In this document: one piece after another, positions 31,620 to 39,050 of the stretch
Layout: the number at the start of each line of letters is the position of its first letter
Position numbering within the stretch: the stretch's first letter is position 1
Assembly (NCBI RefSeq): GCF_039535095.1
Contig: NZ_BAAAWN010000001.1
Coordinates: 3,968,001-4,032,000, forward strand
DNA: 64,000 bases
DNA from: Arthrobacter ramosus
Lineage (GTDB): Bacteria > Actinomycetota > Actinomycetes > Actinomycetales > Micrococcaceae
Direction of reading: 5' to 3'
Notes under the pieces: generated by a model
The model's database searches: none
What the model was told of the DNA's origin: nothing
What the model saw: the letters and a program-made list of their open reading frames with translations, nothing else
Position numbers and translations under genes: made by a program

Positions 31620-32180
31620 TCAGTCACGGAGGCGTTCGACGGCGGCCAGCAGCGCACCGACGTCGGCGCTCCTCGCGCTGGCCTTGACTTCCGTATCACC
31701 GGCGCCGCCCTCAAGCATTGCGTTGAAGTAAAGTCCATCGCCCATATACCGGACCGCTTTGGCCATTTCGGGCCCCACTTCCTCGGCCAGCACATCGAGC
31801 CATTGCTGCTGGATCCCGGCGAAGCGCCTGCGGGTTTCTTCATGCGCCACTTCCGCGAGCCGCGTAGCTGCCACGAACACCCGGTCCAAGGGAGTATCCG
31901 CCCAGAGGGAAGACTTGATGAAGAACGCGGCCGCGCCTTCGGGTGCTGCCTTCATTGCCTCGATATCCAGCGCGGCAAGCCCGTCCATGCGTTCAAGCAA
32001 GGAACCGATCATGGCTTCCTTGTTGGGGAAATGGTAGAGCAAGCCGCCCTTGGAGACGCCTGCACGCTTTGCGACGGCGTCCAGGGTGGCAGCCCGCTCC
32101 CCCACCTCGATCAGCAGGGCTTCAAAGGCATCCAGGACAGCGTCCCGGGCAATAGGTTTTCGCGGCATGGTGTCCATCAT
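31620..32180 (-). CDS. TetR-family transcriptional regulator
   Basis: 186 residues from the ATG at 32180; MPRKPIARD five codons in is an alternative start. The N-terminal helix-turn-helix is clear (DAVLDAFEALLIEVGERAATLDAVAKRAGVSKGGLLYHFPNKEAMIGSLLERM). The C-terminal ligand domain resembles the TetR_C group next to MFS drug exporters. It is divergent from a 14-TM exporter, and the shared 70-bp control region carries a perfect 7-bp dyad at 32224-32239 that is the likely operator for both genes. It acts as a repressor released by a drug-like ligand (inferred). Confidence 0.92.
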   Translation of the reverse strand: MMDTMPRKPIARDAVLDAFEALLIEVGERAATLDAVAKRAGVSKGGLLYHFPNKEAMIGSLLERMDGLAALDIEAMKAAPEGAAAFFIKSSLWADTPLDRVFVAATRLAEVAHEETRRRFAGIQQQWLDVLAEEVGPEMAKAVRYMGDGLYFNAMLEGGAGDTEVKASARSADVGALLAAVERLRD

Positions 32181-35769: not shown

Positions 35770-36018
35770 CTAATCCGCCTTCGACTTCCGGACAGGCGGA
35801 CGCAGCCCGGCAACGAGCTCCTCGGCTTCGGGGCCGGCCTGGGCAGCAGCGAGATTGGCCGCGGCGATCGCCTCAACCACTTCGCGACGCTGGATGGACA
35901 CCCCGCGGGGCGCCTCGATCCCGATCCGCACGCCGTCGCCGCGGCCTTCCATGACGGTGATGACGATGTCCTCACCAATCATGATCTGTTCGCCCGGCTT
36001 GCGTGTCAGTACCAGCAT
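35770..36018 (-). CDS. csrA: Carbon storage regulator, RNA-binding translational repressor
   Basis: 82 residues. The canonical CsrA/RsmA core is complete: MLVLTRKPGEQIMIGEDIVITVMEGRGDGVRIGIEAPRGVSIQRREV, with the RNA-contacting ends of strands 1 and 5 (LTRK and VSIQRREV). The tail of about 25 residues is longer than in E. coli and Ala-rich. In Bacillus and many Gram-positives, CsrA represses flagellin translation and is antagonised by FliW. The fliW gene is absent from this window, as are the flagellin genes. It ends the long minus-strand flagellar operon and starts 5 bp after the flhF-like stop. Confidence 0.95.
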   Translation of the reverse strand: MLVLTRKPGEQIMIGEDIVITVMEGRGDGVRIGIEAPRGVSIQRREVVEAIAAANLAAAQAGPEAEELVAGLRPPVRKSKAD

Positions 36019-36022
36019 GCTC

Positions 36023-37024
36023 TCAATCTACCTTTCCGAGCACTGCAACGCGGGCGGGCTTGCCGTCCACCCACCCGATGGGAAAACCGAGTCCGTTGAC
36101 GGTCTCGGGACTTCCCGTCTCCGACGCGCCGAAAACAGCGAGGGCGTCGACACGGACACGTTCAGCGGCGAGAGCGGCGGAAAGCGCGCGGACCCACGCT
36201 GCCGTGTCTTCCGCTTTCCGCCCAGCGTCAACAACCAGCCACAATTGGTCTGCGGCGAGGGCTGCGATGTCCGCCGCAGCCGTCACGGTTTCGCCCGGCC
36301 TGCCGAGTCCGTACGCCACCAACACGGTTTGGCCGGTGAGCACCGCTTGGGCGCGCGCCGCCGTCGCGCCTTGACGCCCCGTCACGTGAAGGTGCCCGAA
36401 AGCGGTCAACGCTCCGGCCGTCCGGACGTCGGAACCGCCCTCGGCGATGGACATTTCCAGCGCTGGTCCCAGAGCGTCGTCGGCGAGGCCAAGCAGGATG
36501 ATCAGGTTGCCGCTGCCGGCAAGTGGCGCCGGTACGGGCACAGGAACGGCGTGCCCGACGGCGACGGCTGGCGCCTGGAATTCCTTGCCTAACTGCTCCA
36601 ACATCCCGGCGAAATCCGGGGAGGCGGTTGAAACAGCTGCCGCGGGCCGGTGCAGTTCCATCTCGGCCGCGTCGGCTTGCTCCAGGAGCGCGGCGATAGC
36701 GGGCCCCTGCAACGCATACGCCGCCGCGCCTAGATGCGCCGCCCCGGCAATCTGCGCCTCCCCGCCAAGGTGGGCATCCCAACTAGCTCGCACTTGTTGT
36801 CGTTCTGAGCCGTCAAAACGACAACTACTGTTAGCTAGTTGGGTGGAACCCTCTGCCGGAACCTCGATGGTAGCCTCGTAGCGATTGGCTGCGAAGAGCC
36901 CGGCGATCCCCGGATTGGTGACCTTCTCGGCGGAGACGATCCGCGCCCCGGGACCGTACTGTTGCTCGGCTTTCACCCTGATGGCGTCCAGGGATGCGCC
37001 CTTAAGCTTGTATTGCTTCGGCAT
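36023..37024 (-). CDS. FlhF-like protein lacking the P-loop
   Basis: 333 residues. The N terminus MPKQYKLKGASLDAIRVKAEQQYGPGARIVSAEKVT matches the FlhF/SRP-GTPase N-terminal strand-helix, and its place after flhA is the usual flhF position. The expected Walker A (GPTGVGKTT) is not present: the equivalent segment reads GSGNLIILLGLADDALGP. DQLWLVVDAGRKAEDT and VNGLGFPIGWVDGKP resemble the later GTPase strands. It is probably a nucleotide-free relative. Residues about 61-82 are encoded by an inserted 66-bp palindromic repeat. It overlaps the flhA stop by 23 bp. Confidence 0.65.
   Translation of the reverse strand: MPKQYKLKGASLDAIRVKAEQQYGPGARIVSAEKVTNPGIAGLFAANRYEATIEVPAEGSTQLANSSCRFDGSERQQVRASWDAHLGGEAQIAGAAHLGAAAYALQGPAIAALLEQADAAEMELHRPAAAVSTASPDFAGMLEQLGKEFQAPAVAVGHAVPVPVPAPLAGSGNLIILLGLADDALGPALEMSIAEGGSDVRTAGALTAFGHLHVTGRQGATAARAQAVLTGQTVLVAYGLGRPGETVTAAADIAALAADQLWLVVDAGRKAEDTAAWVRALSAALAAERVRVDALAVFGASETGSPETVNGLGFPIGWVDGKPARVAVLGKVD
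36778..36843 (-). repeat. 66-bp palindromic repeat inserted in frame in the flhF-like gene
   Basis: CCCAACTAGCT at the left and AGCTAGTTGGG at the right are perfect inverted repeats; the inner GTTGTCGTT and AAACGACAAC also pair. The length of 66 is a multiple of three and the reading frame stays open, adding 22 residues (starting TQLANSSCRFDGSERQQV) to the protein. A second copy lies at 31548-31613. Confidence 0.85.
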
Positions 37025-39050
37025 GGCGGACCACCCCCACGGTTTCGATCTGGATGTTCGCGGACGTTACTTCGCGATAGGACAACACGGGAACACCGCC
37101 GTCGGGAGCAGCCACGAGCCGCCGGACTGCGGGCCGCAACGCCGGGGCGCACACCAGGACAGCTTGCCGTCCTGCATTTGCCGCGGCCTCCACCGAAGAC
37201 TGCACAGAGGCCAGGACTGCGTCCAAGCGTGCTTGGCTCATGACGATCTGGGTACCCCCTTCGGCCGGGCGCATGTCTTCGAGCATGGACTGTTCCAGGA
37301 GCGGATCGATCATGATCACATTGAGCACCGAGCCGTCCAGGAACTTGGCTGCGAGCGCGGGGCCGAGGGATTGCCTGGCTGTTTCGACCAAAGCCTCGGG
37401 CTCGGTGGAAACCTTGGCTCGCAGGGCAAGGGCCTCGTAAATGCGGGGAAGATCGTTGATGGGGACCTGCTCTTCGAGGAGTCCCTGCAGCACCCGCTGC
37501 ACTTCGGCCAAGGACATGAGCCCCGGAATGAGTTCCTCGACGGCGGCCGGGCTCTGTTTGCGCACGCCTTCCGTCAGCACCCTGACGTCCTCGCGGGTGA
37601 GGAGCCTTGCGGCGTTGGCCGAGACGATCGACGACAAGTGGGTCACCAGCACGGAAACCCGGTCGATCACGGTTGCCCCGGTCATTTCGGCGCTGTGGTG
37701 CATCTCGGTGGGTATCCACTTTCCGGCCAGCCCGAAGACCGGTTCCACAGTGGAGGTACCGGGCAGGGCGTCAAGATAATCGCCGAGGGCCAGCAACTTG
37801 CCCGACGGCGCGGTGCCGCGTCCGGCTTCCACCCCGGCAATGCGGATGGCATAGGTGGCCGGTGGCAGCTCGACGTTGTCGCGCGTTCGGACGGGCGGAA
37901 TCACGATCCCCAACTCCATGGCGATCTTGTGACGCAAAGAGCGGACACGGGCCAGGAGGTCGTCCGAGGCACCGGAGACCATGTCAACAAGGTCAGGAGC
38001 CAACAAGATCTCGAGGGGGTGGACGCGCATGTCCTGCATGAGCCGCTCGTTGGGGTCTTCTTCGGAGCTCAGGGTGGCTGCTTCCTGGGCGTCCTCCGCT
38101 TCACTCTGCTTCTTCTGCTGCGCCGCCAGGCGCCTCGAACCGAACAGCAGGGCAGCGCCCACCAGCAGGAAGGGCACGATGGGCATGCCGGGGATAAGTG
38201 CCATGGCCACTGCGGCCAGTCCTGCGATGAGCAAGGCGTTGGGCGACTGCATGAGCTGCGAGGAGGCCGTGCGACCCATGTCTTCTTCGGCATTGGACCG
38301 GGTGACGATCATGCCCGTGGAGACGGCCATGAGGAGGGCCGGGATCTGGGTAACGAGCCCGTCGCCCATGGTCAGAAGGCCGTAGGAGTTCAGCGCGTCG
38401 CCGACATTCATGCCGCGCTGCAGCACGCCGATGGCAATGCCGCCCACGAAGTTGATGATGATAATAATGATGCCCGCGATGGCATCGCCCTTGACGAACT
38501 TCGAGGCACCGTCCATGGCGCCGTAGAAGTCGGCCTCGGCGGACACCTCGGCGCGGCGCTTGCGGGCCTGGGCGTCCGTGATGAGGCCGGCGTTGAGGTC
38601 GGCGTCGATGGCCATCTGTTTGCCGGGCATGGCGTCCAGGGTGAACCGTGCCCCCACCTCGGCCACGCGTTCGGCGCCCTTGGTGACCACCACGAACTGG
38701 ATGACCACCAGGATCAGGAACACCACGGCGCCGATGATCATGGACCCGCCCACGGTGACCTTGCCGAAAGCGTCGATCACTTGTCCGGCGAAGCCCTGCC
38801 CCAGGACCAGCCGGGTGGAGGCGACGTTGAGCCCCAGCCGGAACAGCGTAGCCACGAGCAGCAAGGACGGGAAGACGGAGAAGTCCAGGGGCTTCTTGAC
38901 AAACATGCTGGTGAGCAGGATCAACAGGGCCAGCAGGATATTGCAGACGATCAGGAAGTCCAGCAGCGGCGCCGGAACGGGAACCACCAGCAGCAGCACG
39001 ATGCCCACGATTCCCACCGGCACGGTGAGCCTGGCGAATCTGTTGTTCAT
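37002..39050 (-). CDS. flhA: Flagellar export gate protein FlhA
   Basis: 682 residues. About eight TM helices fill the first half, with the family block VTKGAERVAEVGARFTLDAMPGKQMAIDADLNAGLI. The cytoplasmic C-terminal domain (about 340-682), which docks chaperones and the ATPase, follows. It is the main gate component of the flagellar type III secretion system. A 79-bp gap separates it from flhB and carries a 22-codon open frame (MSRGPNPRTAPSKHPTPDRTQQ) whose stop overlaps the flhA start, perhaps a coupling ORF. The gene is intact, so export-gate function is not obviously lost. Confidence 0.97.
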   Translation of the reverse strand: MNNRFARLTVPVGIVGIVLLLVVPVPAPLLDFLIVCNILLALLILLTSMFVKKPLDFSVFPSLLLVATLFRLGLNVASTRLVLGQGFAGQVIDAFGKVTVGGSMIIGAVVFLILVVIQFVVVTKGAERVAEVGARFTLDAMPGKQMAIDADLNAGLITDAQARKRRAEVSAEADFYGAMDGASKFVKGDAIAGIIIIIINFVGGIAIGVLQRGMNVGDALNSYGLLTMGDGLVTQIPALLMAVSTGMIVTRSNAEEDMGRTASSQLMQSPNALLIAGLAAVAMALIPGMPIVPFLLVGAALLFGSRRLAAQQKKQSEAEDAQEAATLSSEEDPNERLMQDMRVHPLEILLAPDLVDMVSGASDDLLARVRSLRHKIAMELGIVIPPVRTRDNVELPPATYAIRIAGVEAGRGTAPSGKLLALGDYLDALPGTSTVEPVFGLAGKWIPTEMHHSAEMTGATVIDRVSVLVTHLSSIVSANAARLLTREDVRVLTEGVRKQSPAAVEELIPGLMSLAEVQRVLQGLLEEQVPINDLPRIYEALALRAKVSTEPEALVETARQSLGPALAAKFLDGSVLNVIMIDPLLEQSMLEDMRPAEGGTQIVMSQARLDAVLASVQSSVEAAANAGRQAVLVCAPALRPAVRRLVAAPDGGVPVLSYREVTSANIQIETVGVVRHAEAIQA

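Follow-up and report, generated by a model that had tools for sequence, protein, structure and literature searches.

A family of dispersed 66-bp palindromes in Arthrobacter, placed mostly behind stop codons

Dispersed palindromes are common in bacteria, and why they stay in genomes is an old question. It is raised again by a locus of Arthrobacter ramosus, within an analysed stretch of 64,000 nucleotides (the window), where the initial annotation noticed a 66-bp palindromic repeat lying in frame in a protein-coding gene, together with an intergenic twin, and likened this behaviour to that of the Rickettsia palindromic elements (RPEs). What kind of element is this, and is the inside of a gene its usual place? 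The features concerned are the following.

36778..36843, minus strand: 66-bp palindromic element, in frame in an flhF-like ORF, 22 residues
31548..31613, no strand assigned: intergenic 66-bp palindromic element, 6 bp 3' of the stop codon of a TetR-type gene
36778..36784, plus strand: left outer arm end CCCAACT, pairing with AGTTGGG at 36837-36843, near-invariant family-wide
36798..36804, plus strand: inner conserved block TGTCGTT (type A core), with its mirror AACGACA at 36817-36823
36023..37024, minus strand: host ORF, flhF-like by position, flanked by flhA and csrA
31620..32180, minus strand: TetR-type regulator gene, its 3' end towards the intergenic element
37002..39050, minus strand: flhA (PF00771; TIGR01398 score slightly below the cut-off)
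35770..36018, minus strand: csrA (PF02599)

The two 66-mers agree at 54 of 66 positions without gaps, and their differences do avoid the paired bases, all 12 lying outside the positions that form Watson-Crick pairs in both window copies. The copy at 36778 has the inverted-repeat ends and the inner TGTCGTT/AACGACA stem ascribed to it, and it is read in frame within the ORF on the minus strand, where it encodes the 22 residues QLANSSCRFDGSERQQVRASWD. Two labels of the initial annotation need a nuance: the twin is intergenic, yet only 6 bp from the stop codon of the TetR-type gene, and the name flhF is based on the position of the ORF between flhA and csrA, no Pfam or NCBIfam model having matched the ORF itself at E 0.001. 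The suggested folding check was likewise divided, both copies being very stable on both strands (z -6.9 to -9.3 against dinucleotide shuffles, with 0 of 200 shuffles as stable), but with no compensatory double change between them. Among the seven relatives whose loci reach the site of the twin, it is occupied in four (L081, L082, L083, L087) and empty in three (L084, L085, L086).

Chance similarity of the two sites is ruled out by the many copies in the same genome, set against none in a reversed control. In the genome containing the window (G000; 5.25 Mb, single contig), a strict pattern that permitted 42-67 bp found 20 forward and 21 reverse matches, with a length of 66 bp among the matches listed, and half-arms at up to 2 mismatches found 90 forward and 87 reverse matches; the control gave 0 in both searches. 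The half-arm counts point to about 90 copies, so that the genome-wide search proposed for the 66-mer uncovered a sizeable family. Its elements are dispersed extragenic inverted doublets with terminal inverted repeats, and their length is nearly fixed: all 139 non-redundant copies with flanks, drawn from several genomes, measure 66 bp, although the outer-arm pattern permitted 60-74 bp. The exceptions among the matches listed in a family-wide draw are of 73 and 67 bp in G300 and of 67 bp in G031. In 37 aligned copies the near-invariant positions are 1-7, 10-11, 13-15, 17 and 21-27 with their mirror, the rest being variable. According to the inner sequence we distinguish type A (TGTCGTT), type B (TAGTGGTTGTT), type C (GTTAACGTCGTC) and type D (GCAGGGGCCGTT), a sorting of our own alongside which G031, G300 and G032 also carry mixed or intermediate variants; among the matches listed, the core type goes with the genome. 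Eight copies read in G099 are near-perfect palindromes, matching at 28-32 of 33 arm positions. As to their distribution along G000, the 2.5 Mb between 0.74 and 3.24 Mb hold 8 zero-mismatch places among the matches listed, which reach 4.63 Mb, and a 7.28-kb segmental duplication of 99.9% identity (20-27 kb and 5238-5245 kb; L262:1-7278 and L263:953-8224) includes a truncated element, of which 57 bp matched.

The family appears to be confined to the genus. Extending the search to the Micrococcaceae, as had been suggested, the outer-arm-only pattern (60-74 bp permitted) was found in 44 of the 121 genus genomes, with 66 bp among the matches listed, and in none of 227 family genomes from 31 other genera; the half-arm pattern matched one place in one of these 227. 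In the family-wide draw, 9 of 245 genomes matched, all from the 18 of the own genus. The type-A pattern occurs in 27 of the 121 genus genomes, at 0 to 84 forward matches per genome, and the idea of zero-copy genomes had to be given up for several of those without a type-A match, which carry other core types instead. The eight close matches of an flhF scan are all Arthrobacter species. Among mobile replicons, the type-A 66-mer was unmatched in 50,697 phage records, the outer arms had no exact match in viral contigs, and 72,556 plasmid records gave 1 match, on a 1.35-Mb Arthrobacter replicon. A literature search, with subscription journals and supplements outside its scope, returned no paper on these repeats, and the exact 15-base arms were absent from the full texts searched within the same limits; Arthrobacter livingstonensis does appear in a table of REP counts, in PMC12306157.

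The usual place of the elements is directly behind genes. Among the 139 copies with flanks, whose genes were called by a home-made codon-score finder, 80 lie between tandem, 41 between convergent and 7 between divergent genes, 9 lie in genes (two genes) and 2 are unclear; these counts are corrected for three flhF copies (L082, L087, L088) that the finder had filed as tandem. Thus 130 of the 139 are extragenic, and of the 123 extragenic copies facing a stop codon 113 start within -20 to +25 bp of it (median 10), cross-genome counts that are not independent, many copies in different genomes being orthologous. In G000 alone, where 41 of about 90 copies were examined, the same holds for 35 of 37 stop-facing copies. 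Long tandem gaps show the preference most clearly: in all 36 that exceed 100 bp the element is closer to the upstream stop, and in 31 it lies no more than 25 bp from it, against an expectation of 7.8% of the insertion points in the window's tandem gaps of that size. Types B, C and D, of which there are few copies, fall within -20 to +25 bp of a stop in 3 of 4, 5 of 6 and 5 of 5 cases, respectively. Nineteen copies start at exactly -9, where the stop codon is the element's own (CCC-AAC-TRR); over both arms of the 139 copies, the codon at the TRR position is TGA in 115, TAG in 83, TAA in 33 and TGG in 43. In the complete relative G012, whose contig presumably starts with dnaA-like and dnaN-like frames, judging by their residues, the interval from the dnaN-like to a gnd-like reading frame contains an element (L229, near 3064).

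The in-gene copies all belong to two sites, in the flhF-like and in an isochorismate-synthase-like gene (PF00425). An alignment of flhF-like orthologues, the comparison envisaged at the outset, places the element at the same position in 7 of 9; those without it, in AZCC_0090 and A. bambusae DS999, have a linker that differs at that place. In Arthrobacter sp. Hiyo8 (L087) the reading frame of the flhF-like ORF is lost downstream of the element. The isochorismate-synthase-like gene carries an in-frame element in 6 of 7 genomes, G000 among them, and has 17 nt of other sequence at that point in DS999. The element is read in frame 3 in the former gene and in frame 2 in the latter, so that the two sites share no encoded peptide, and all six isochorismate-synthase-like copies have TTTAG for TTTTG, by which a stop is avoided in frame 2. 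The initial annotation was therefore right that a dispersed palindromic family exists and can occupy genes in frame; its parallel with RPEs extends to the in-frame siting in two genes, but not to insertion in genes as a rule. The flhF copy would be one of few inserts that a protein linker has accommodated, since 66 bp make 22 codons and one frame is open.

Many sites are shared between species. When 22 sites of G000 were compared with seven named relatives, many were occupied at the same place among the matches listed. G079 (gcvP identity 89%) has an element at 11 of the 22, six with both flanks matched (L004, L005, L007, L009, L010, L011) and five with one (L006, L008, L012, L018, L019); L015, a derived duplicate, was left out of this count. 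Orthologous copies (18 pairs, 10 sites) disagree at 13 of 720 invariant (1.8%) and 98 of 468 variable positions (20.9%), and their flanks at 146 of 2798 (5.2%), a figure that is no clean neutral rate because the flanks are partly coding. The comparison leaves out L137 and L139, decayed or truncated copies among the 20 orthologous ones retrieved. Paralogues within G000 differ at 2.4% of invariant and 34.8% of variable positions, so that orthologues are more alike than paralogues at the variable positions. Taken together, the shared sites and these rates indicate that the sites are old, that the core is held and that the rest drifts.

Loss is documented as well. A. bambusae DS999 (G358, taken as the same genome as G051, since contigs and coordinates agree; gcvP 91% identical) has no type-A and one outer-arm match. 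Its former sites hold relics, namely arm pieces, truncated copies and one full-length copy in which 7 of 40 invariant positions are changed, while the remaining ones hold nothing recognisable. DS999 once had elements and then lost them. Its near relatives keep dozens, which makes it a natural knockout. Two relatives, including the closest by the flhF region, lack the element at the L009 site; four others keep it.

Cores also differ between genomes at the same site. At two sites G101 has type C and G000 type A, and at two adjacent sites that flank a small gene G109 has type A and G085 type D, the elements of G085 being complete at both sites and the second copy of G109 retaining one recognisable arm. 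Such differences reflect either a joint re-tuning across the lineage or a refilling of the same sites. At the L009 site the element starts 5-8 nt 3' of the stop in G000, G001, G079, G099, G101, G107 and G110, a constancy that favours joint re-tuning without proving it. The small gene is flanked by two elements in two species (L216, L217), and its product in G085 weakly matches the endonuclease-like PF18741, below the cut-off. Half-arms 1.1 kb apart in G109 were considered as the ends of an autonomous element and rejected, the first belonging to a complete element and the second to the one-armed copy.

To see whether the two arms of a copy agree more than the common motif would make them, arms were re-paired at random within a genome 2000 times, on a subset of copies taken from the matches listed and from alignment A1, and the matches at positions 16-21 compared. 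Observed matching exceeded the re-paired mean in G031 (72 of 90 against 50.8; 0 of 2000 as high), G079 (154 of 198 against 137.4; 1 of 2000), G065 (82 of 102 against 70.4; 4 of 2000) and G115 (89 of 96 against 83.8; 6 of 2000); it was weak in G000 (164 of 222 against 155.3; 92 of 2000), and G111 showed no excess (38 of 42 against 36.8; 597 of 2000). In four of the six genomes tested, then, the inner stems covary within individual copies. A deficit in A1 at positions 8, 9 and 12 may be due to the asymmetric pattern from which most of A1 derives, and the centre (28-33) shows no pairing excess except in G115.

What, then, keeps the elements at gene ends? Covarying inner stems, very stable folds and a position just past stop codons or where genes converge would also suit an RNA hairpin at the mRNA 3' end, acting as a two-directional terminator or stabiliser. 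We regard this as rather unlikely, for the outer stem and the core are nearly invariant in sequence instead of being free to covary, tandem copies have no T-tract on their 3' side (T 10-16% at +2 to +15), neither window copy was listed in a terminator scan, and Rfam gave no match (best E 0.94). In tandem copies read on the sense strand, G-U is no commoner than A-C (71 against 76 mismatches, p 0.74, few events and a weak test), so that nothing there points to RNA. A MITE-like, non-autonomous palindromic transposon, moved in trans by some transposase and left with no host function, either surviving beside stops because it does harm elsewhere or targeting gene ends, is a doubtful explanation, although a good deal speaks for it: the terminal inverted repeats, the patchy copy number between genomes, the near-perfect copies of G099, the existence of in-gene copies, and the lineage-specific cores that changing transposases would lead one to expect. 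Against it stand the position hard by the stop in most long tandem gaps, with no spread along the gap, and the invariant positions kept at orthologous sites, which an old insert devoid of function should not show. Moreover, visual inspection revealed no target duplication beside 40 copies, nor in 20 relatives spanning the junctions, which show partial deletions or loss and no clean insertion site, and the 30 largest clusters of neighbour proteins (373 proteins, inspected without a family-library scan) contain no recognised transposase; these clusters are mostly orthologous loci, the largest consisting of paralogues. No far-apart pair of element ends, as of a parent transposon, was seen in the loci inspected.

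Two more specialised readings fare less well. The elements could be attC-like sites of a non-integron tyrosine recombinase that could carry a gene along with the element at its 3' end, which we consider very unlikely. attC sites, too, lie behind ORFs, and the ends of the 66-bp elements tend to read RYYYAAC and GTTRRRY, base -1 of each arm being a purine in 69%. G000 offers a single case of a duplicated ORF with its element: 1577 bp of mmsA (TIGR01722), 98.7% identical, at 2.380 and 3.911 Mb (L257:1280-2856 and L258:1295-2871), begin directly upstream of the start codon and stop 2 bp past the downstream element, and synteny with G079 shows one copy to be in its original location. This pair might alternatively reflect gene conversion among older paralogues, and its breakpoint lies outside, not inside, the core box. 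Further, the copies are seen dispersed and not in arrays, and of the four DNA-folded copies those of the G031 and G115 types are unbroken stems without extrahelical bases, that of the G111 type having one mismatch and the window copy internal loops. Membership of an integron is ruled out by the integrase model (TIGR02249), which stayed below the cut-off in all 121 genomes. Least probable of all, and scarcely credible, is an RPE-like selfish palindrome specialised for in-frame insertion into genes. Its length divisible by 3, the open frame in 147 of 278 strand readings (one of three frames) and the two genes with an in-frame element accord with it, but the family is overwhelmingly extragenic, with 9 of 139 copies in genes and these at two sites only, and the frames differ between the two host genes.

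The reading we favour, tentatively and at somewhat less than even confidence, is that these are genus-restricted DNA palindromes, formerly spreading units and now mostly inherited in place under selection, which serve as gene-end sites of a protein acting in trans. Such a partner is proposed mainly because DS999 had and lost its elements and because sites are shared, even if drift alone, with no partner gone, could account for what happened in DS999. The mirror-symmetric invariant blocks, the fixed spacing, the copy-wise palindromy, the absence of strand preference and the lineage-wise inner change fit a DNA-binding partner, and the location of the elements, behind stops or where genes converge, suits a gene-end function in both directions. 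The presumed trans-encoded protein would recognise the palindrome as DNA, either as duplex or as extruded hairpin; its specificity may drift between lineages, pulling the copies of a genome along; and the bound element might act in both directions as a transcription roadblock, an insulator or a topology site. Searches for Y1/RAYT in 22 genomes, for the integron integrase in 121 and through the 30 largest neighbour clusters identified no binding protein or recombinase. The bolder form of this proposal, that a protein of evolving specificity reads the 66-bp palindrome behind dozens of genes and that lineages re-tune their copies jointly, making it a two-way roadblock or insulator or a gene-carrying recombination site, we hold to be unlikely, without being far-fetched. 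Should the DNA-level reading of gene ends be true, bacteria would have an added way of ending or insulating genes, a palindrome-based two-way roadblock or insulator unlike intrinsic or Rho termination. With orthologous and decayed copies, several inner types and a fixed length, the persistence of dispersed palindromes becomes testable in this family.

Among known systems, the REP/BIME and REPIN families come close, being short dispersed extragenic palindromes and inverted doublets. REP elements are also positioned behind genes, like the 66-bp elements. REPINs form populations with conserved parts inside a genome (PMC3116915), which is seen in the 66-bp family too, and REPs are described in PMC3733652 as 20-40 bp long with stems of 5-13 bp. 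Here, in contrast, there is one 66-bp palindrome with arms of about 31 nt and a nearly fixed length, and a RAYT-driven REPIN is ruled out, as the Y1_Tnp/RAYT domain (PF01797) was found in none of the 22 genus genomes searched, of which nine are rich in elements, but in 5 of 14 control genomes. The likeness to RPEs, which are palindromic, dispersed and partly in frame in genes, is limited by their size of about 150 bp, their presence in ORFs in nearly half of the cases and their conserved peptide (review PMC10969869), set against 66 bp, a small in-gene minority and no shared peptide in Arthrobacter. attC sites resemble the elements in their RYYYAAC...GTTRRRY boxes and in being palindromes of 57-141 bp (PMC3053210), a range that includes 66 bp, and differ in that the latter are single, dispersed and near-symmetric. 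MITEs such as Correia/NEMIS and ERIC have terminal inverted repeats, as here, occur in tens to more than 100 copies, mostly intergenic, and in some cases affect transcripts at 3' ends (PMC10969869); the 66-bp elements are without an internal non-repeat region, and neither a target duplication nor a parent transposon was found in the loci inspected. The family is thus best filed with the dispersed palindromic repeats of the REP/MITE kind, from which it is set apart by its fixed length and its gene-end address.
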